The position numbers and the translations under genes are program-made. From Bryobacterales bacterium (GTDB taxonomy: Bacteria > Acidobacteriota > Terriglobia > Bryobacterales > UBA6623), in the NCBI GenBank assembly GCA_028819255.1, contig JAPPMB010000003.1, forward strand, positions 62,001 to 126,000: a DNA stretch of 64,000 nucleotides, read 5' to 3'. A model generated the notes under the pieces. It was not told where the DNA came from. It saw only the letters and a list, made by a program, of their open reading frames with translations, and did not search any database. Below are positions 16,654 through 28,156 of this stretch, in pieces. Position 1 is the first letter of the stretch. Every line of letters starts with the position of its first letter.

Positions 16654-17907
16654 TCACCTTCGGCCCGTCACGGACTCCTCGTATGCCCGCACCTGGTCGA
16701 GCCATGCCGATTCCTGCGGAACGCCCCGCATTTCGCAGTAGTGGTCCCAGACGGCGCCGAACGGCATCGTCAGCATCTGCTCGAGCAGGGCCAGACGACC
16801 CGTAAAGTCACCGTCTTGCTCCATCCGGCGGAGTCCCGCCGAGGGCTCGAGCAGGGCCATCAGCAGGGCCTTCAGCATCGCCCGGGCCCCGATCACCCAG
16901 GCAGCCACGCGGTTGATGCTCGCATCGAAGAAATCCAGCCCGATATGCACCCTGGACATGTACCTTCCGCGAACGAGTTCCTTTGCGATCTCGCGCAGCT
17001 CATCCGAGACCAGGACCACATGATCACTGTCCCAGCGCACGCCGCGACTCACATGCAGCAGCAGGCGATCGACCCACAGCAGCACCGAGGAAATCTTGTC
17101 CGAGACGACCTCGGTCGGGTGGAAGTGGCCCGCATCCAGGCAGAGGACGGTGCCCCGGGATGCCGCATAGCCGAGGTAGAACTCGTGGGATCCGACCACA
17201 TAGCACTCCGAGCCGAGCCCGAAGAGCTTGCATTCGACCGCGTCAATATTGTGCTGCGGATCCAGCGGCTCGCTGAAGACGGCATCCAGCGCTTCCACGA
17301 GCCGCTCCCGCGGCGTCCGTCGGTCGGCTGGCAGATCCTTGTATCCGTCGGGGATCCAGACGTTGGTCAGGCAGGGCGTGCCGAGCGCCTTGCCGAACGA
17401 TGCGCCGATCCTGCGGCAGGCCTTCGCGTGCTCGACCCAGAACTGGCGGATGCCGGGATCCGAATGAGCGAGGGTGAACCCGTCGGCTGCCATGGGGTGC
17501 GCGAAGAACGTGGGATTGAAGTCCAGCCCCAGATTCCGGTCTCTTGCCCAGTCGCACCAGCCGCTGAAGTGCTCTGGCTGCAGCTCGTCGCGTCCGATCC
17601 TCCTGCCGTCGGTCTCGGCGTAGATGGCGTGCAGGTTGAACCGATGGCGGCCGGGAATCAGAGACAGCGCCGACTCGAAGTCCATCCGAAGCTCCGACGG
17701 CGACCTCGCCTGGCCGGGGTAGTTCCCGGTGACGGCCAGTCCACCGCCGACTTCCCCGGTTCCCCCCTCGAACCCTCGGATGTCGTCACCCTGCCAGCAG
17801 TGGATCGAGAGGGGTATCGAGGAGAGGGCCTGAAGTGCCGAGTCGCAGTCAACGCCCAAACCAGCGTAGCGCTCCCGGGCAAGCGCGTATGCTTGCTGCG
17901 CTGACAA
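16654..17907 (-). CDS. rhaA: L-rhamnose isomerase
   Basis: A ~417-residue TIM-barrel isomerase converting L-rhamnose to L-rhamnulose. Colinear with E. coli RhaA over its whole length: [65 protein letters not shown] (metal Glu), [17 protein letters not shown] (metal Asp and His), and VRWDSDHVV. The metal-binding acidic and histidine residues are retained. No ATG precedes the domain at the right distance: the best guess is TTG at 17907; an ATT at 17922 has an AAGGCGG sequence 7 bases before it. No rhamnulokinase or aldolase gene is nearby, so the pathway is incomplete in this window. Confidence 0.9.
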
Positions 17908-18501
17908 GATGCAATCAAGAATAGACCATCCGCCTTGCGGGGACTCGGCTGGGCGGCCGGGCTGCCGCGCCCCGCGGTCGCGATCCAGGCGGGACAAGGG
18001 GTTCTCGCGAGCCCTTCGCAATCTCGGTTCTGCCCGCTTCGAGTCCGACCGCGTGGCCCGGAGCCGCATTGGTCAGGGAGTGGCGGCAGGGTCGGGAGTT
18101 GGGGCACCAGTGTGGGGAACGGCGAGTTCAGGGTAGCCCGACGGAGGCCGCGAAGCGACCGAGACCGGTTGGTGAACAATCCTCACAGAAGAATCGTCAA
18201 CGAAGGTCTGTCGAAACTGATTCGCAGAAGCCCCAGATCTTCCGGACTGGGATGACGGCGATCGCGCGGCGCGTGAGCGACGGGCGGATGCCGGGCTGGA
18301 TCGAACAGATGCCCATTGCCGCGCCTGCCCCCTCCTACACGAGGTCCGTTGCAGATGATCCCGACCCCTGGGACCGTCAGTCGAGCAATGCCGCATTCTC
18401 CCCTAATTCGCGCTCCTCGCGGCATCTGCTCTGTCGCGCCGGGCCTGACTGCCAAGTCCAGAGGGCCTGCAGTCCGGACCCTCGGCGATTCGACTGGCGG
18501 C
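17908..18501. other. Intergenic region between rhaA and the bacterioferritin gene
   Basis: Nearly 600 bases downstream of the bacterioferritin stop codon and upstream of rhaA. It should hold the rhaA operon promoter, but no clear -35/-10 pair or palindrome was recognised. Open frames here are low-complexity and not supported. Confidence 0.4.
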
Positions 18502-18972
18502 TCACCTGCGCATTTGCTGGGAAAGGTACAGTCCGAGCCCGGCATCGCTAATGATTTGCAGTTGGGACTCGAGCCAGTCGATCCTTAATTCCTCATCCGC
18601 GAGAATGCTCTCCAACAACTCCCTTGACGCGTCGTCTTCATGCTTGACGCAGACATCGATTCCCGCATTGGCGCAATTGGCCGTGTCTCTGGCAAGCTTG
18701 CGGTCACGTGCGTGAATCTGGCCGACGTCGGTTCCGATCCGAAGGTGGTAGGTGTCGCGCAAGTTGGGCATCCCCTCGAGGAACAGGATCCGGTCCACGA
18801 GCTGCTCCGCGAACACCATGTTCCTGATCGATGCCTTGCGGATGGCGTGGGCGATGCCTTCGTATCCCCAATCCAGGCACATGCGGGCGTGGAGGAAGGA
18901 CTGGTTGATGGCGGTCAACTCGTACTTGAGGAGCTGACGCAACGAGGTAAGTACATTGGGGTTGCCCTTCAT
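18502..18972 (-). CDS. bfr: Bacterioferritin with a degenerate ferroxidase centre
   Basis: A 156-residue four-helix protein that aligns with E. coli Bfr without gaps through residue 135 (same ILFLEG at 62-67 and DWLE at 132-135). The haem-ligand Met52 is kept. Of the six diiron ligands only Glu18 and Glu127 remain: position 51 is Asn, 54 Phe, 94 Ala and 130 Arg. Tyr25 is Ser. Such subunits cannot build a normal ferroxidase site. In some Bfr proteins a haem-binding subunit without ferroxidase residues co-assembles with a second, competent subunit; no such partner is encoded in this window. It is a single-gene unit. Confidence 0.9.
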   Translation of the reverse strand: MKGNPNVLTSLRQLLKYELTAINQSFLHARMCLDWGYEGIAHAIRKASIRNMVFAEQLVDRILFLEGMPNLRDTYHLRIGTDVGQIHARDRKLARDTANCANAGIDVCVKHEDDASRELLESILADEELRIDWLESQLQIISDAGLGLYLSQQMRR

Positions 18973-19296
18973 TCTCGACTACGCTCCGTATCGCTCGAAA
19001 GTACCGGCGCTGAAGCCCCAAGTGGGCCTCCCAACCAGAATCATAGCCCAGTCCCGCGATTCTCGCCCGCTTGGCGCGGCAACTGGCCGCCAGTCAGCCG
19101 GCTCTCCGACACTCGGACGACATTGGAATGGCATCGGCTGGACGCGACGGCCGTCCCTTCCTCCCCAACACTCCGAACAGGTGACATCTTCACAGCTCTC
19201 TGGCAATTGCCCACTGGTCGACGAGTCCACGGCCGGCTCGGGCCTTGCGTGACGGGGCGCAGTCGGCTTGCATTGAGGCCACTAAGGGCCAGCGGA
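18973..19296. other. Intergenic region upstream of bacterioferritin
   Basis: About 320 bases separating the bacterioferritin start from the first IS630 relic. It should contain the bfr promoter. No Fur-box-like or other palindrome could be defended. Confidence 0.4.
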
Positions 19297-19890
19297 CTGG
19301 TGTTCCGTCATAGGGTGGTTTTCGGGTGGACGGCCTTGGGCTTGCACCGAGCACCAGCGTCACTTTCCGGCGGCCGGCGTCATGCCCCTCCAGCAGGCCC
19401 GCCATCTCGTGCACCCAGTCCGTATTCGTGCGACGCTCGCGGGCCCTCGCCTGCCGCCTGCCGCTCGGCGGCTCGCAGAACACGTGCGCCGCCGCCGTGC
19501 CCGCCAGTTCGCACTCGTAATGCACCCGCTGCGGATGGTTCCCGGTCGCCGGCAGACTCTCGCGCGTCTCCTTGACCAACCGCACCGGCCGCTTGTCCAT
19601 GGACACCGTCGGGTGCTGCGCATGCACCATGGTTCGTGTGCGGCGCCGGTAGGCATCCGCGAACGGCCGCTCGGTCCAACCCGGCCCGTCCGAATCCATC
19701 TTGAGCAGGATTCCGGCGAGTCGCGCCATCTGGCCACTGCCCCTGAGCTCGTTGATCGTGGCGTCGCCAATCTTGCGCTCTTCCTCTGTCAGACGGAACA
19801 TGTACTTCCGGTGCATCATCTTCTCTTGGGCCTCGCCCGTCCCAAGTAAGACACATGCCGCCTGAATTGTTAGATCTGACAGAACGCCAG
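19297..19890 (-). mobile_element. IS630-family relic 1 (internally deleted)
   Basis: About 594 bases bounded by imperfect inverted repeats: TGTTCCGTCA at 19301-19310 and the complement of CGTTCTGTCA at the right end (19877-19886), each with a CTGG/CCAG outer tetramer resembling a mutated CTAG target. Minus-strand reading gives the transposase N-terminus (MHRKYMFRLTEEERKIGDAT), then jumps to the catalytic middle (VSMDKRPVRLVKETRESLP, CEPPSGRRQ, KVTLVLG) and then to the last residues (CKPKAVHP), so at least two internal segments, including the HTH end and the second and third catalytic acids, are lost. It cannot encode active transposase. Confidence 0.85.
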
Positions 19891-20016
19891 ACCATCCGTT
19901 CCAAACGCTCGAGCGTAACCGAGATGAGCAAGTAGGGCAGGAGGATCGGTAGTCGCTTGTCCAAATGCACTAGATGTGCCTTCCAGACCGCCAAACAGGC
20001 GCTGTAGCCGGCCTGC

Positions 20017-23000
20017 CTAGAAGACGAGGCGGAGGCCGAAGCGTGCCGTGATCGGATCCAAGAACCGGTTTCTCATCAGGAAGCGCGGATCTTGGGTTGC
20101 GCCCTGCGAGGCCGCAATCGCCTCGTAGTTGTAACCGTTCAAGACCTGTGAGATGGGGTCTCCGGGTTGCCACAGCGGCAGGGTCTGGCGGTACAGGCTG
20201 CGGAAGGTCCGCAAGGCAGTTTTCTGGTTGAGGACGTTGATCACGTTGAAGTTCAGTTCAAGCCACTTGCTCTCGTCTGCAAACGGGTAGAAGCGCTGGA
20301 TCACGGAGAGGTCAGTCTGTGTCCAAGCCGGGTTCCTGCCGTCGCTTCCGCGATTGTCCACAAGAACGTCAACGTGCTCCAAGTCGACCGTCCGACTGAT
20401 CGGAGTACCGCTCATGGCACGAAGGAATCCGCCGATTTCCATTTTCCATGGCGTGATGTACGCCCAGTTGGCTTTGAGCTGGTGCGCTCTATCCGTGCCC
20501 AGCGGCCCGTCGATCAAGCTGCCGTTGGAGTCGTAGTTCAGGAACCATAGGTCGAAGTCCCGGTCCACGTTCGGACTGAGGCGGCCGTTTTCATCGGAAC
20601 TGCCCAAGCCAGAGTACAGGCCGTGGAGTCGCGAATACACATAGGCGAAATCGGCAAGCCACCTATTGTGGAAGGCTCTCCGAAGGCGGGCTTCCCACGC
20701 GTTGTAGGTCCTCTTGGGCATAGGCGTGGGCGGCAGGCCCGCTTCGATGAATCTGTCCACCGAAAGGCCTCGGCCCGGATTGGTGATGTAGTAGGCCTCC
20801 CCGGCCGGAGTCTGGCGGCCCACGTCCTCGATGGCTCTGTCGAGGTTCTTGCGGGTGTACCGAAACGACAGCACATAGTCCGTCGCGACCTCGTATTCGA
20901 GACCGGCCACGGTTCCGGTCATGCGCATCGGCTTGAGATCGGGGTCGAGATCTTCGAAGGACGGAATACGCCAGTTCCGAGTCTCCAGAAACGTTCCCGG
21001 GTAGTTGCCTTGGCCTGAGAACCCGCCGATCTGGGTCCAGTCAAGCGTGCTGTCATCCATCAGGTAGTAGTGGCTCAGCCATTTGAATCCTCCGAAGGAG
21101 CCGTTGGCCATCTCCAGTTTCATGGCATCGTAGAACTGGCCCCAACTGCCGACCAGCTTGAGCCTCGCGTTGCCGAGCACGTCGTAGGCAAACCCAACGC
21201 GGGGTGCGATCTTGTCGAAGAAGTTCCACTTGAAGGCCGCTCCCGAGAATTCCGGCAGATCGCTGAAGGATGGGATCTCCTCCCGCTCCATGCGCAGGCC
21301 GATATTCAGAGTCAGCGACCCGTTGATTGTCCACGAATCCTGCACGAACAGAGCGTGCCTGTTCGTGCTAACATTGGCCAAGACGCCGAACGGAGAACGC
21401 AGTTCGTAGTAACCGCACGGGTCGTAGAGCATGCCGTCCGGGCCCGTACAAGTGCTGGTGCGCACAGTGCCGTCCACCAAGGTGTAAGGTCGGGTGTAGC
21501 GGTACAGCAGATAGTCGTACTTGTAGGAATCATTGATGTCGTGCCCGAGCCCGTTGAGCTGCCAGCCAAAGCGCAGGTTGTGTCGCTGGCCGGCCGTGTT
21601 GGCCAGATAGCTCCCCGTCACCGAAATCGTGCTCTTCTTTTGGAAGTCTTGCGACGTTTCGAAGCTCGCGCCGTGACTGATCGAGTAAAAGCCTCGGGGA
21701 CGATACAGCGGGCTGTCCGACGCGAATCCGATCAGGCCTGGCGATTCAATGAACCGGTGACGAACCTGTTGTGGTCCGAGCAGTTGCTCGGTCTGGATGG
21801 CATTCAGGCCCCACCGGGCGTCCACCACGAAAGTGGGTGTCGGGGTGAACATCGCCGCCCCGGCGACGGTGTGACCGGGGTATTCGTAGCCTTCTTCCGA
21901 CCAGCGAAAGTTCGGGTTGGAAGTGCCGTCGAGATCAGGCAATCCACCTTTCCGCTTCGTGAAGTCTGAAGCCCAAGAGGCCATCAGGCGGACTTTCTCC
22001 GCAGGCTGGAAATCGACCTTCGAAGTCGTGCTCCTCAACTGTTCGTTGCGTTTGAAGACGCCGGACTCTCCCGAGGTGAACGTCACCGATCGCGAACGGT
22101 TGCGCACCTGTGGCAGCAGCGCACCGAAGAACCAGGCCCGATCGCGCCAGATGGGACCGCCTAAGGTGAAGCCGAATTCGTTCGTGACCAGCCCATCTTC
22201 TGGATCGTAGACGTACTCCGCTACGTCGACATCTTGAGTCGGATCAAGACGGAGTCGCTTGTTGGGCGCCCCGTCAACGGCGCTCCCGCTGCCATACCAC
22301 AGCAGGCTTCCGTGAAAACTGTTGGACCCGCTCTTGGTCTGGACGCTGAGTACGCCGCCCATCGCCCCGCCGAATTCCGCCTCGTATCCGGCAGTCTTGA
22401 GCTGGAACTCTTGCACCGTCTCGACGCGCAGGTTCTGATTGTTGAGGCCGTTGTACATGCTCGTCGTGTCGATGCCGTCGACATAGAAGACGTTTTCCGC
22501 GCCCGAGGAGCCGTCGACCGAAATGCCGCGAACCGTCCGCCCCTTGTGAGAGACATTGCCGGCTAGGGCTTCGATGTTGACGCTGGGTGTGTAGCGGGCG
22601 TATTCAGTGAAGTCACGACCGCCTGCGGCATTGGTGAGCCTGTCGCCTGAGAATATCGAGGCCTGCTCGCTGTTGAACGTATCGATCACTGCCGTGCCTG
22701 CTTCGACCACGATCGTGCTGTCGACTCGGCCGACTTCGAGGGGCATCTCCACCAAGAACGTCCGACCGATTTGGACCAAGACGTCCTCGTTCATGACGGT
22801 TTGAAAGTCTTCGGCCCGAACCTTCACGCTGTAGTTTCCCGGCGGGAGATTGCTGTTGAAGACCGACCCATGTTCGTCGGTGACAGCGAGGACAGATCGG
22901 ATCAAGGCCGGGCTTCTGAACTCAACTTCGGCACCGGGAATAACGCTGCCAGTTTGGTCAGTTACGAGCACGTGCAGCCCGCCGACCTGTTGCTGGGCAA

Positions 23001-23070
23001 CGCCGCGGCCGTGAGTGGCAATCAAGGGAATAGCGAATAACGCGAATCGCGCAATGGTTTGACGATACAT
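20017..23070 (-). CDS. Oar-like TonB-dependent receptor with carboxypeptidase-regulatory domain
   Basis: A 1017-residue outer-membrane protein. A signal peptide (MYRQTIARFALFAIPLIA) is followed by a beta-sandwich carboxypeptidase-regulatory-like domain (VLVTDQTGSVIPGAEV, about residues 30-115), a plug domain containing the VFYVDGIDTTSMYNGL segment, and a barrel that ends in phenylalanine (GLRLVF), the outer-membrane assembly signal. No TonB box was pinpointed. I use the ATG at 23070, which has AGGAAA at the right distance and begins the signal peptide. Such receptors import large or scarce ligands; the substrate is unknown. The gene is bracketed by two IS630 relics. Confidence 0.9.
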   Translation of the reverse strand: MYRQTIARFALFAIPLIATHGRGVAQQQVGGLHVLVTDQTGSVIPGAEVEFRSPALIRSVLAVTDEHGSVFNSNLPPGNYSVKVRAEDFQTVMNEDVLVQIGRTFLVEMPLEVGRVDSTIVVEAGTAVIDTFNSEQASIFSGDRLTNAAGGRDFTEYARYTPSVNIEALAGNVSHKGRTVRGISVDGSSGAENVFYVDGIDTTSMYNGLNNQNLRVETVQEFQLKTAGYEAEFGGAMGGVLSVQTKSGSNSFHGSLLWYGSGSAVDGAPNKRLRLDPTQDVDVAEYVYDPEDGLVTNEFGFTLGGPIWRDRAWFFGALLPQVRNRSRSVTFTSGESGVFKRNEQLRSTTSKVDFQPAEKVRLMASWASDFTKRKGGLPDLDGTSNPNFRWSEEGYEYPGHTVAGAAMFTPTPTFVVDARWGLNAIQTEQLLGPQQVRHRFIESPGLIGFASDSPLYRPRGFYSISHGASFETSQDFQKKSTISVTGSYLANTAGQRHNLRFGWQLNGLGHDINDSYKYDYLLYRYTRPYTLVDGTVRTSTCTGPDGMLYDPCGYYELRSPFGVLANVSTNRHALFVQDSWTINGSLTLNIGLRMEREEIPSFSDLPEFSGAAFKWNFFDKIAPRVGFAYDVLGNARLKLVGSWGQFYDAMKLEMANGSFGGFKWLSHYYLMDDSTLDWTQIGGFSGQGNYPGTFLETRNWRIPSFEDLDPDLKPMRMTGTVAGLEYEVATDYVLSFRYTRKNLDRAIEDVGRQTPAGEAYYITNPGRGLSVDRFIEAGLPPTPMPKRTYNAWEARLRRAFHNRWLADFAYVYSRLHGLYSGLGSSDENGRLSPNVDRDFDLWFLNYDSNGSLIDGPLGTDRAHQLKANWAYITPWKMEIGGFLRAMSGTPISRTVDLEHVDVLVDNRGSDGRNPAWTQTDLSVIQRFYPFADESKWLELNFNVINVLNQKTALRTFRSLYRQTLPLWQPGDPISQVLNGYNYEAIAASQGATQDPRFLMRNRFLDPITARFGLRLVF

Positions 23071-23150
23071 GTGACTTTCCTGGTAGTAAGCGTTCAGTGT
23101 GGGGCGCAAGTATGGCCGCAGGGTTCTTCAAAGTTCGTAGCGGTGACTAG

Positions 23151-23707
23151 CTCGTGCTCCGTCGCAGAATGACTCTCGGGTAGACGGCCTGGAGCTTGCA
23201 GCGAGCGTCGTCGATCCTCATCTGCCGTTCCACTCCTCGCTGGCGTGCGCTGACATCGGTGGACCAAGCGGCGGTCTGCGTGCGCAGCTCGTTGAGGGAG
23301 CCGATGCGGTGCACTCTCAGGCACTGGCGGGCCATCGCGCTCAACTCGCATTTCGCCACGTTCAGCGAGCTGCCGTGCTTCGGTGTGTGGCAGAACTCGA
23401 CCGGACACACCAGTTCTCGTGCCCGCCCGGGCTCGAACGCCGCGTAGAACGCTCTTTTCGTGTAGGTGTTCAGATTGTCCGGCACCAGCGTGACCTTCTC
23501 GCACCCCGCGTAGCGCCCCTCCAGAAGGCCCGCCACCTCGTCCGCCCAGTCCGTTGTCGTGCGACGCTTGCGGACCCTCGCCAGCCGCCGTGCGCTCTTC
23601 CCCAGTCAGAAGAACTATGCACTTCTTTTGCGTCACTGGCTTCCGGGCCTCGCCCGTCCCAAGTAGGACATGATCTGCCTGAATCGTCAGAAGTGACAGA
23701 ACACTAG
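23151..23707 (-). mobile_element. IS630-family relic 2 (internally deleted)
   Basis: About 557 bases. The right terminal repeat reads TGTTCTGTCA on the minus strand (23694-23703) next to CTAG (23704-23707); the left repeat is TGCTCCGTCG (23155-23164), with CTAG at 23147-23150 just outside. The remains of the transposase are the first ~15 residues, then a jump to the catalytic C-terminal part: VPDNLNTYTK with the second catalytic Asp, and TPKHGSSLNVAKCELS, where the third acid (Glu of the AE pair) is Lys. Both the deletion and this change make it inactive. Same orientation as relic 1 and clearly related to it at both ends. Confidence 0.87.
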
Positions 23708-24579
23708 AAACGGTAAACCATCAGCAGCTGCGGAAGAATCTCGCGCGCGTCCTTGAAGCCGAACTTGTTGATCCAGACATGAAACTCGATTCCAGCGAAC
23801 CAGCGGCCCTCAAGCCCCGCCAGTGCCTTGCCCAGGTCGACCCGGAACTGCGGCTGGAGAAGGATCCAGTACGGTGCGCGCACGCCGAACTCGGTGTCTC
23901 TCGGGCTCTTCCACTCACCGTGACCCTCGAAGGAGAACGACGCCTTTCCGACCTTAAAGGGAAGTCCCCAGTTGAAGTCCACCAAGTGGCTGGGGCCCTC
24001 TTTCGGCGCCCCGCCCGCCGCCAGTCCCTTGGACCCGTCCAACAGGTACATGTAGTCGAGATTGGCGAAGGCGAATCCGGGAAGGTCCAGCTGGATTCGC
24101 CCCCCCGGACCGAGGTTGAGAAATTTCGCCTGTGCGCCCCAGTTCAACGCGGCAAGCGGCCCGGCGTCTCGGATCGGGCCCCATGAGAGCTTGCGTCCCG
24201 TAATGGCCCCCAGGCTCAGATACGGGTACCACTCGAGGTAGACATCCCTGTCTGCCTGCGACCCCGAGCAGCAGATCATGTCAACGAAGAAGAAGTTCTC
24301 GCCGAATTTCCATCCGCTTGCATGCTGAAGCGTCTGGATGTGCTGGAATCCGTCCGGACTGACCAGATGGGGGCGAAGCGCTCTGCCCCCTTGGTACTGG
24401 AATTCCGTGACGCTCCAGCTTTGCGGCAAAGCCGTCGCGCGGGTCGCGAGGACGCAGGCCGCCAGGATGCCGAACCTGGCGATCCGCTGTTGCAGGCTCG
24501 ATGCACATCCGCCAGCGGCTAACGGTGACGCCTCGCTTCGGCAAGGCGTCACGCTAGGCACTTGAGAGTCGCCGCTCAC
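23704..24579 (-). CDS. Tsx/OmpK-like outer-membrane channel protein
   Basis: A 291-residue beta-barrel candidate. After a signal-like stretch (ARFGILAACVLATRATALP) comes HASGWKFGENFFFVDMICC, followed by LEWYPYLSLGAITGRKLSWGPIRD, which matches the pattern of the nucleoside-specific channel Tsx and OmpK family, and the protein ends with phenylalanine (MVYRF), the barrel assembly signal. Family members let nucleosides or small solutes across the outer membrane. The TAG stop lies inside the CTAG at which IS630 relic 2 is inserted, so the insertion touched the very end of the gene without removing the terminal Phe. The start is not well defined. Confidence 0.68.
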   Translation of the reverse strand: MSGDSQVPSVTPCRSEASPLAAGGCASSLQQRIARFGILAACVLATRATALPQSWSVTEFQYQGGRALRPHLVSPDGFQHIQTLQHASGWKFGENFFFVDMICCSGSQADRDVYLEWYPYLSLGAITGRKLSWGPIRDAGPLAALNWGAQAKFLNLGPGGRIQLDLPGFAFANLDYMYLLDGSKGLAAGGAPKEGPSHLVDFNWGLPFKVGKASFSFEGHGEWKSPRDTEFGVRAPYWILLQPQFRVDLGKALAGLEGRWFAGIEFHVWINKFGFKDAREILPQLLMVYRF

Positions 24580-24637
24580 CCTCTGCTTGACTCGGAACTC
24601 CTTATAGCGCCGGATTCAACTGCTGTGCGACACTCTC

Positions 24638-27600
24638 CTAGAAGATCCACTTCAGACCGAACTGGATCCTCCTGGGCTCGGAGGCGGTTACGATCCGGCC
24701 CGCTGCGGGACGTCCGATTTGTGTGTTCGGCCTGCCGAACACCGGCGTGTTTGTGAAGTTGAACGACTCGAACCGGAACTGCAGGTAGTCGCCCTCCCAG
24801 GGAAGGTTGAACCGTCTGGAGAGCGAGAAGTCGATGGCCGTCGTGCCGGGGCCCCAGATCAGATTCCGCCCGGCGTTGTCCAGCATGCCAGGCTGGCCCG
24901 CTACGACCGCATCGGTGTTGAACCAGCGGTCGATCGTTCGCTGCGATGCCGGCAGATTGAGCTCCCCCACGAGATCGCCGCGGTTGGCTCCGCCGACGTT
25001 CGTCGTGTTCTGGTTGAAGGAGTGGCTGTCCGGTGTTCCGCCGAGGAAGTTGAGAATGCCGCCGATCTGCCAGCCGCCCAGGATCCACGCACCGGGGCCG
25101 GAACTGAGCATGTTCTTGCCCGGTCCGAACGGAAGCTCGTAGACGATGCTGGTGACGTATGCCAGCCGGCGGTCGAGGGAGGCGTTGCCCCGCTCGATGG
25201 TCTGGTTGTAGGTGAACCGCTGCTGGGATGTGGTGCCGGTGGTGAGGTTCTCGTTCACGATGTCGATGTTGTGGGCCCAAGTGAACGAGCTCAGGAACGT
25301 GAAGCCGCCGGTGAAGCGCTTCTCCGCCTTGATCGTCAGCGAGTTGTAGTTCTGGTTCAGGAAGTTCACGCCGCGCAGGCCGACAGAGTTGAAGAACGGA
25401 CGGATCCTCCGGTTCTGCCATCTGACCGTGGGGTGGGGCGTCAAGGGCCGGTTGATGTTGATCGCACCGTGAATCTGCGAGGTGGAGGAGCCGTTGTAGC
25501 CGATGGTCAGCAGGGTGTCTCCCGGAAGCTCGCGCTGGATGTCGAAGAACCACTGGCCGGCATAGAAGCTCGGCCAGACGCCGTCCTTCTTCACATTGAC
25601 GTTGAGCCCCGCTCTCGGGAGCCCTGCCCGCGTGGAGGCCGGGAACCCGTCCTTGGTGAAGAACGAGCTGAAGTCGCGAGGTTGGGCGTTGTCGAACTCG
25701 TTCGACTGAGGGGCGCCCGTGTTGAAGCGTGCTGCCTCGCCGCCCGTGTTGTCGTGCTCGCCGTAGAAGAGGCCCGCGCCCACCCGGACCACCGTCTGAT
25801 CGTTGATCCGGTACGCAAGGCCGATTCGCGGCGCGAAGTTGTTCAGGTCGTTCTCACAGGCGCAGTCCGAGCCGCTCTCAGGCGTGCGGAAGTGGGGCAG
25901 GTATTCCGCCTCGCCCCACCCTCCCTGGCGGACGGGCAGCCGCTCGCCGGGTTCGATGGAGCGTCCGTTGACCTCTCCGAGAAACCGCACAACCGTGCTG
26001 TTCAGTGTGTGGCTTTGCGGATCGGGGAACGTGGGTGTGAGGAACAGTTCGTAGCGAAGCCCCATGTTCAGCGTGAGCCTCGGTGTGAGCTTCCAGTCGT
26101 CCTGGACGAAGACTCCCCAGTATGGGATGACCTGCTCCTCGCCGTTCGGCCAGCCCCACCGGCCATTGGCGTTCCATCCCAGCAGCCCGTCCGCGACTGC
26201 GTTTCCGGTTGCGCCGCGGCTGGCCGCGACATTCGGCATTTCCGCCGTGTAGACGCCCGTGTACTGAAACCTGCCGCGGCGGAATCTGGACGGGGAGCGG
26301 GGGATCTGCGTGCGGCGGTACTCCGCCCCCACCTTGATCGTGTGGCTGCCTTTGACCCAGGTGAAATTGTCAGAGATCTGCAGATTGTCCATCTTGTTGA
26401 CGTTGGGCCAGAACGCCCGCGGACCAACGGCCGTGAAGCCGCTCAGCAGAGAGAGCGCGTAGCCGTGATCCAGTCCGTCGTCGATGGAATCGCCCGGCGC
26501 TCCCAGAACGCCGAACTGCGAGTTCAGCGACTCGGTGAATGGTATGTCGAACCGCGTCGGGAAGAAGGTGTATCCGAATCGCAGCTCGTTGAACATCGTC
26601 GGGCTGATGGTCGAGTGGAGGGCCGACGCCCAGTTCTGTCCGGGCAGGTCGATGGTCTGCCCGTTTCCGCCGTTCGCCGGCAGAGGCAGCTGGCCGTTCT
26701 GCAGGACGAACTCGTCACGGATCGAGTACCGAGCGAACCAGCGGTTGCCGGGAGTCATGTTCCAGTCGAACTTCATGTCGTACTGGTTGTGGTCGATCGT
26801 GTCCGCCGGCGCATAGAAGTGGTTGTTCCTCTCGTGCTCCCTTCCTGCGATGTTCGGAGCCGGATAGTTGCTGAACAGTGCTGTCGCGACCGGGTCGAAG
26901 CGGCTCGACGGGATCACGAAGTTCGGAAACGCCGATCGGGTGCCGTCCTCGGAGAGCGTCAGGGGATCGTAGATCCTGCGGTCCGGGTCCGGCTGCTGAG
27001 AGAAATCACCTCCCAGCGCGTCCCTGCTGGGAATTGAGGCGGTGAAGCTCTGGCCCGCACGATCCTTGGTGCCTTGGAAGCTGAAGAACCCGAACAGCGT
27101 GTTGCGGACGATCGGGCCGCCGACTGTCCCGCCGTACTGGTTGCGCCGGAGGGTCGGCTTGTCCGACCCGACGCGGTTGGCGAAGAAGTTGGTGCCGTCC
27201 AGCTTGTCGTTGCGAATGAACTCGTAAAGCGAACCGTGGAACTCGTTGGTGCCTGACTTCGTGCTTACGAGCACCTTGGCCCCCATGCGGTAGCCGTACT
27301 CGGCAGACATGTTGTTGGTCACGACCTTGAATTCGCCGACCGCGTCTACCGAGGGCTTGGTGGCCTGTGCCTGGAATCCCAGCGCGCCGCCCGAATTGCG
27401 CGAGGAGTTGTCCGCGCCGTCAAGCAGCACGTTCGTTTGCGCCGCATGCATCCCGACAGCCAGGATTCCGCCCTCGCCGCCCCGGACGCCGTCGTGGCGC
27501 GTTCCCTTGCCCATCTCGCGCGAGGGCAGGACCCCGACGGAGAATTTCGCGAGTTCGAGGTAGTTGCGGCCATTGAGCGGCATCTCGAGGATCCGCTTCG

Positions 27601-28006
27601 AGTCGATGACCTGGCCGACTTCCGTCTTCTCCGACTGGATTAGGATTGCGGCGGCGTTCACCTCGACCGTCTCAGTGACGGAACCCACCGACATCGCGCA
27701 GTCGATGCGCATCGTCTGCTGGACCTCCAGACGCACTTCCGGGAACTCCTGAGTCGAGAATCCGTCGGAGGAGCAGGTGACCGAGTAGAGGCCCTGGTTC
27801 AGGCCGGGAGCCGTGTAGAACCCGACCTCGTTCGTCGAGACTGAACTCTCGGTTCCCGTCTCGATGTTCGCCACGACGATCGAGGCGCCGGGTATCACGG
27901 CGCCCGTATCGTCTGTTACCGTTCCTTGGATCGTGCCGCTCGTCTGGGCGAATGACAGCCCGATAGCGAAGGAGCACGCCAGCGTCAAGCGCAGCAATGA
28001 ATTCAT
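24638..28006 (-). CDS. Giant Oar-like TonB-dependent receptor
   Basis: A 1122-residue outer-membrane receptor. The ATG at 28006 follows an AGGGGG ribosome site and opens a signal peptide (MNSLLRLTLACSFAIGLSFA). Next is a carboxypeptidase-regulatory domain (GTIQGTVTDDTGAVIPGASI), a plug with the PLNGRNYLELAKFSVGVLP motif that is very common in acidobacterial receptors, NVLLDGADNSSRNSGG, and a long barrel ending in WIF. The family is expanded in Acidobacteriota and thought to handle large polymers. It is not accompanied by a SusD-like lipoprotein. Transcription is towards the Tsx-like gene, 58 bases beyond its stop. Confidence 0.92.
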   Translation of the reverse strand: MNSLLRLTLACSFAIGLSFAQTSGTIQGTVTDDTGAVIPGASIVVANIETGTESSVSTNEVGFYTAPGLNQGLYSVTCSSDGFSTQEFPEVRLEVQQTMRIDCAMSVGSVTETVEVNAAAILIQSEKTEVGQVIDSKRILEMPLNGRNYLELAKFSVGVLPSREMGKGTRHDGVRGGEGGILAVGMHAAQTNVLLDGADNSSRNSGGALGFQAQATKPSVDAVGEFKVVTNNMSAEYGYRMGAKVLVSTKSGTNEFHGSLYEFIRNDKLDGTNFFANRVGSDKPTLRRNQYGGTVGGPIVRNTLFGFFSFQGTKDRAGQSFTASIPSRDALGGDFSQQPDPDRRIYDPLTLSEDGTRSAFPNFVIPSSRFDPVATALFSNYPAPNIAGREHERNNHFYAPADTIDHNQYDMKFDWNMTPGNRWFARYSIRDEFVLQNGQLPLPANGGNGQTIDLPGQNWASALHSTISPTMFNELRFGYTFFPTRFDIPFTESLNSQFGVLGAPGDSIDDGLDHGYALSLLSGFTAVGPRAFWPNVNKMDNLQISDNFTWVKGSHTIKVGAEYRRTQIPRSPSRFRRGRFQYTGVYTAEMPNVAASRGATGNAVADGLLGWNANGRWGWPNGEEQVIPYWGVFVQDDWKLTPRLTLNMGLRYELFLTPTFPDPQSHTLNSTVVRFLGEVNGRSIEPGERLPVRQGGWGEAEYLPHFRTPESGSDCACENDLNNFAPRIGLAYRINDQTVVRVGAGLFYGEHDNTGGEAARFNTGAPQSNEFDNAQPRDFSSFFTKDGFPASTRAGLPRAGLNVNVKKDGVWPSFYAGQWFFDIQRELPGDTLLTIGYNGSSTSQIHGAININRPLTPHPTVRWQNRRIRPFFNSVGLRGVNFLNQNYNSLTIKAEKRFTGGFTFLSSFTWAHNIDIVNENLTTGTTSQQRFTYNQTIERGNASLDRRLAYVTSIVYELPFGPGKNMLSSGPGAWILGGWQIGGILNFLGGTPDSHSFNQNTTNVGGANRGDLVGELNLPASQRTIDRWFNTDAVVAGQPGMLDNAGRNLIWGPGTTAIDFSLSRRFNLPWEGDYLQFRFESFNFTNTPVFGRPNTQIGRPAAGRIVTASEPRRIQFGLKWIF

Positions 28007-28156
28007 AAAACCCCCTAAATCGAAAGCCGATCTCCGCACGACTCTCCAGTGTGTCGAAGACGGCCTCGCTTCATCGTAACGTGAGCCATCGAGCATGGTC
28101 AATGTTTGCGGCATCGCGAGACGATGCCCGTCGCGCAGGGGCCACCGCATCTTCCG

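Follow-up and report, generated by a model that had tools for sequence, protein, structure and literature searches.

The window, the whole 64,000-nucleotide stretch of DNA analysed here, carries on its minus strand a reading frame with an ATG start whose product is a bacterioferritin (hereafter the window Bfr; Table 1). The genomes that host this gene belong, judging by their named relatives, to uncultured Bryobacterales/Terriglobia of the Acidobacteriota. The protein matched TIGR00754, the NCBIfam equivalog model for bfr, along its full length (residues 1 to 155 against profile positions 1 to 155) and above the curated cut-off of 125.55 bits, and it matched the Pfam Ferritin model with 80.6 bits. 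A sequence search of the PDB returned 50 distinct sequences, nearly all of them bacterioferritins, and the top match was SoBfr2, the haem subunit of the Shewanella hetero-Bfr 9IIG (phmmer E value 3.1e-35). The helices of the AlphaFold model (residues 5-34, 38-64, 83-110, 114-144 and 146-151) correspond to the five Bfr helices, a four-helix bundle followed by a short fifth helix. Foldseek superimposed the model on several Bfrs with TM scores of 0.97-0.98 and an rmsd of 0.7-0.8, and 9iig_M, the haem subunit of SoBfr12, was among the best fold matches (TM 0.98, rmsd 0.8).

Table 1. Genes in and around the bfr locus of the window
Feature	Position	Strand	Evidence
bfr paralogue, 156 aa	18502..18972	minus	TIGR00754 165.4 bits; AlphaFold mean pLDDT 96.7; Foldseek TM 0.98
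rhaA, L-rhamnose isomerase, downstream neighbour of bfr	16654..18069	minus	TIGR01748 680.9 bits; synteny
Permease-like membrane protein, downstream of rhaA	14925..16619	minus	order conserved
TonB-dependent outer-membrane protein	24641..28009	minus	CarboxypepD_reg and OMP_b-brl_4 domains

All residues are numbered by E. coli Bfr positions. The ferroxidase site of a canonical Bfr has six diiron ligands (E18, E51, H54, E94, E127 and H130). Four of these are replaced in the window Bfr (N51, F54, A94 and R130) and only E18 and E127 are kept; positions 25, 46, 50 and 52 hold S, K, R and M. Our ligand table reproduced exactly the residues listed in the first-pass annotation of this DNA, namely the four replacements, the retained E18, E127 and M52, and S25. 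That annotation had relied on a gap-free comparison with E. coli Bfr, which was upheld: in HMMER comparisons with the closest bacterioferritins of known structure, residues 1 to 154 aligned without a gap, so no gapped alignment brings the diiron ligands back, and misalignment as the cause of the ligand loss was ruled out. The haem ligand Met52 is present in this protein and in all 12 ferroxidase-less proteins that we identified (see below). The haem pocket of M. tuberculosis BfrA is formed by L19, I22, N23, F26, R45, F49, M52, R53, A55, E56 and Y71 (PMC2777505). The window Bfr keeps these residues at positions 19, 22, 23, 26, 45, 52, 55 and 56, its pocket consisting of L19, I22, N23, F26, R45, I49, M52, A55, E56 and L71. 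Both the family model and the fold thus identify the protein as a bacterioferritin, and the missing six-ligand ferroxidase site sets it apart from a canonical homo-Bfr. Recognised haem subunits of hetero-Bfrs likewise have this site degraded or lost.

We examined conservation in 11 genomes of the window genus (G000-G010, the window genome being G000) and one genome of a sister genus in the same family (G012), 12 in all. An orthologue was present in every genome of the genus, the ten others being 65-77% identical to the window Bfr. S25, K46, N51, M52, F54, E127 and R130 were invariant in all 11, position 94 was Ser in a single genome and Ala in the other ten, and position 18 was Gln in two genomes against Glu in nine. 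The presence of an orthologue with fixed replacements throughout the genus excludes chance or sequencing error. The relative in the sister genus was 62% identical and contained S25, K51, M52, H54, G94, E127 and Y130, residues that make up a second form of ferroxidase-site loss in which His54 is still there. Copies from three genomes of another genus (G013-G015) and from G017 were 47-51% identical and had an intact ferroxidase site. Pairwise Nei-Gojobori (NG86) dN/dS values for the 14 closest pairs of ferroxidase-less orthologues were 0.06-0.15, and those of the canonical paralogue in the same genomes (described below) were 0-0.12. Thus the loss of the ferroxidase site is ancient and has been held under purifying selection.

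One could suppose that E18, E127 and other residues allow the altered site to go on oxidising iron or to bind a single metal ion. E127 is invariant and E18 is found in most members of the genus; moreover, SoBfr2, which has no E94, shows a weak peak near E18, and an E18A change affected its iron storage (PMC12120770). Against this, the site has lost both His ligands and two of its four Glu ligands and has gained an Arg, while the two members with Q18 indicate that E18 is not under strict selection. We regard a residual site of this kind as improbable.

A gained positive charge in the emptied site was seen in most lineages of a survey that covered few lineages, two further ones having no such charge. 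The gained residues were R130 in the window genus, K51 in the sister genus, K18 in Idiomarina, R54 in Silvimonas, K127 and R130 in Marinobacterium, K54 in Bowmanella, and K18 and K51 in Skermanella. In the window genus Arg130 lies at the site alongside the remaining Glu127 and usually Glu18, the corresponding residue of the sister genus being Lys51. The L chain of animal ferritin has a Lys in place of a metal ligand, where it forms a salt bridge. By analogy, a salt bridge from the Lys or Arg probably substitutes for the metal in the emptied site. The L-chain salt bridge is the subject named in the title of reference 10 of PMC6529640.

The gene order in the relatives, all on one strand, is TonB-dependent outer-membrane protein, ferroxidase-less bfr, rhaA and permease. 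In most of them an orthologue of the outer-membrane protein in Table 1 (about 87% identical) lies approximately 190 bp upstream of bfr. The rhaA gene adjoins the ferroxidase-less bfr in the genus (L027-L035) and in the sister genus (L136:8647-10410); intact bfr copies in other genera of the family are located away from rhaA. The distance between the bfr stop codon and the aligned rhaA start was measured in eight genus relatives and in G012; it was about 30-150 bp in G012 and in seven of the eight, so that bfr, rhaA and the permease gene are often spaced as if they formed one operon. L026 has a 2.4-kb insertion between bfr and rhaA, and 432 bp separate bfr from the start of the rhaA reading frame in the window. 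The permease-like protein had no Pfam or NCBIfam match. Upstream of bfr in the window, approximately 5.7 kb (18973-24640) with a second TonB-dependent receptor (20017-23109) part the gene from the receptor gene that usually precedes it. This segment, which also contains a reading frame (19190-19819) with no Pfam match, resembles an insertion or rearrangement peculiar to the window genome.

The insertion-like DNA between bfr and its usual upstream neighbour, the loss of catalytic residues and a long stem branch (see below) would fit a decaying duplicate on its way to becoming a pseudogene. However, every one of the 11 genus genomes, like that of the sister genus, has an intact copy (62-77% identity); dN/dS is low in close pairs, the replaced residues are fixed and synteny is kept. 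The orthologues, dN/dS values and synteny together rule this reading out, and we give it hardly any credence.

The first-pass annotation had noted that no second bfr lies nearby, and had asked what would then supply iron oxidation. Although its observation was correct for the immediate neighbourhood, it did not hold genome-wide. The canonical second gene that it had proposed to look for is present on another contig of the window genome (G000:C138:58895-59356) and encodes a full ferroxidase site. Such a paralogue, with E18, Y25, E51, M52, H54, E94, E127 and H130, was found in each of the 12 genomes that carry the ferroxidase-less gene. These findings rule out the absence of an oxidising partner with all six ligands and resolve the question of oxidation. 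The two bfr genes gave the only PF00210 matches in the window genome, which therefore yielded no Ftn or Dps belonging to this family. The two genes lie on different contigs in the window genome and approximately 70 kb or more apart in those relatives in which one contig carries both. Although the canonical partner keeps Met52, its haem pocket differs at positions 19, 23, 26 and 71; it contains F19, H23, I26 (I or M at 26 in other genomes), K45 and M71. The BfrA-like residues of the ferroxidase-less copy, compared with the altered ones of the canonical copy, thus make the copy without oxidation the one with the better-kept haem pocket.

The combination of a retained Met52, a degraded ferroxidase site and a second bfr with an intact site in the same genome is that of the haem subunit of a hetero-Bfr. 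The partner of a hetero-Bfr is expected to be without Met52; here, Met52 occurs in the partner in all 12 genomes. We favour a model in which the window Bfr is a haem-binding, ferroxidase-inactive subunit that acts beside the canonical one, probably within the same 24-mer. In the first-pass annotation two roles had been suggested, that of a haem carrier within a mixed shell and that of a haem-binding Bfr that does not oxidise. The data agree with both, and the presence of a canonical partner in 12 of 12 genomes favours the mixed shell. The canonical subunit of such a shell would oxidise Fe2+, and ferroxidase-less dimers would hold haem for electron entry to the mineral and iron release. Ferroxidase-less subunits would also dilute the ferroxidase centres of each shell, much like the H and L chains of animal ferritin. 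We infer co-assembly, haem loading, the absence of activity, the role in iron release and the electron donor by analogy with Bfr1/Bfr2 of Magnetospirillum (PMC6529640) and SoBfr12 of Shewanella (PMC12120770).

Several observations argue against a mixed shell. The two bfr genes are far apart, so co-expression is not evident, and a canonical partner with Met52 could build a complete homo-24-mer by itself, with no compelling need for the ferroxidase-less subunit. In addition, the neighbours of the ferroxidase-less gene serve rhamnose use rather than iron, and no stand-alone Bfd was found that could act as electron donor. A search of the genus genomes (G000-G010) for the stand-alone Bfd ferredoxin of Bfr-Bfd iron release (PF04324, Fer2_BFD) found none, although the genus has two Met52-bearing Bfrs and the E. 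coli control was positive. The PF04324 matches in the genus were confined to long frames (738-1087 aa), and the one that we read, in the window genome, was NirB-like.

The main rival to the mixed shell is a separate haem-binding cage, in which the ferroxidase-less Bfr would form its own homo-24-mer or dimers, bind haem and store no iron alone, unmixed with the canonical Bfr. It might then serve as a haem store, a haem buffer or a haem-based redox protein. In favour of this reading, Met52 and the haem pocket are intact, and the gene lies away from its paralogue, within a rhamnose locus. The dimer interface of the window Bfr also contains R30 with acidic residues at 56 and 60, which matches the salt-bridge set reported for haem-binding PaBfrB dimers (PMC12120770), whereas close relatives have E30; the protein may therefore readily form dimers with itself and have changed its assembly preference. 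However, known ferroxidase-less subunits that keep Met52 assemble with a partner that bears a ferroxidase centre, and co-assembly comes readily even to unrelated Bfr and Ftn subunits (PMC12120770, PMC8945002). Every genome with the ferroxidase-less gene, moreover, has a canonical partner. We therefore consider a separate cage unlikely, though a more serious contender than a residual ferroxidase site, and prefer the mixed shell.

The 12 ferroxidase-less proteins grouped as one clade (100/100), on a stem of 0.87, in the Acidobacteriota part of a 115-member Bfr tree, and the canonical paralogues of the same 12 genomes formed a separate clade (100/98). Within the genus, tips were short and of roughly equal length in the ferroxidase-less and canonical clades. 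This pattern of a long stem and short tips is that of a burst followed by constraint. Proteobacterial ferroxidase-less subunits that keep Met52 (from Idiomarina, Silvimonas, Marinobacterium, an alphaproteobacterium and Arenicellales) were placed elsewhere, and a single clade of acidobacterial and proteobacterial ferroxidase-less subunits was rejected (p-AU 0.016, a value to be read with caution as the branches are long). Tree placement and this test reject the shared descent that would join the window Bfr to the haem subunits of proteobacterial hetero-Bfrs. Thus a ferroxidase-less, haem-keeping Bfr arose in Acidobacteriota independently of Proteobacteria. In the surveyed proteobacterial pairs the partner gene is adjacent and encodes R, L or I at position 52, whereas the acidobacterial partner is distant and keeps Met52.

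We also surveyed 25 other Terriglobia genomes with at least two bfr genes, leaving out one unreadable copy (L193). Nearly all copies that could be read had a full ferroxidase site and Met52, which rules out ferroxidase-site loss as the rule in Terriglobia with two bfr genes. The exceptions were L168 (G341: D51, F130) and L192 (G142: H25, D94, K127, N130), possibly further independent losses. G013 and G015 have an intact copy together with a second, divergent Bfr-like protein, which softens any strict rule that loss occurs only where a second Bfr exists. Many Terriglobia (canonical paralogues L001/L022 and L143-L191) have two bfr genes that both encode Met52 and a full ferroxidase site, one copy with the usual N23/F26 pocket and the other with V, A, H or M at 23 and M or I at 26. 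These pockets are perhaps two haem environments.

A Bfr has thus once more, and independently, lost its ferroxidase site while keeping its haem site, this time outside Proteobacteria and with dispersed genes. Two steps that are usually seen together come apart here, as the haem subunit lost oxidation and the oxidising subunit kept the haem ligand, and these genomes provide a natural test of whether splitting the oxidation and haem tasks needs a haem-free partner. The second form of loss in the sister genus, with His54 present, and the intact site in other genera of the family make the order of loss readable. A fuller and more tentative reading is a hetero-Bfr of new layout, with Met52 and haem binding in both subunits, only one of which would oxidise and has a remodelled pocket (F19, H23, I26, M71), a shell holding as many as 12 haems of two kinds, a separate acidobacterial origin, no Bfd and a haem-subunit gene in a rhamnose locus. 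Taken jointly, these features make up a reading that is possible but on balance doubtful.

The idea of a ferroxidase-less subunit that keeps Met52 is not new, as such subunits are known from Proteobacteria (PMC6529640, PMC12120770). In Magnetospirillum gryphiswaldense, Bfr2 likewise keeps Met52 without several ferroxidase ligands and Bfr1 oxidises (PMC6529640); there, however, the genes are adjacent and Bfr1 is without Met52, whereas the acidobacterial genes are dispersed, the partner has Met52, and the pair, from another phylum, has an origin separate from that of related proteobacterial subunits on our tree. In SoBfr12 of Shewanella oneidensis (PDB 9IIG; PMC12120770), SoBfr2 shares K46 and has a degraded ferroxidase site (D51, V94), but it keeps most ligands, unlike the window Bfr, and its partner SoBfr1, encoded by an adjacent gene, has K52 instead of Met52. 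Mixed 24-mers of a haem-binding and a second type of subunit are also formed by Pseudomonas aeruginosa FtnA/BfrB and Acinetobacter baumannii Bfr/Ftn (PMC8945002; PDB 9BTS). In P. aeruginosa, however, it is the haem subunit that keeps its ferroxidase centre, its haem-free partner being a ferritin, whereas the putative haem subunit described here is the ferroxidase-less one. Animal ferritin likewise places a ferroxidase-less L chain beside a ferroxidase H chain, but the L chain has no haem and its loss is of unrelated origin. By these analogies, the window Bfr appears to work like the haem subunit of a hetero-Bfr, from which it differs in descent and in the Met52 of its partner.
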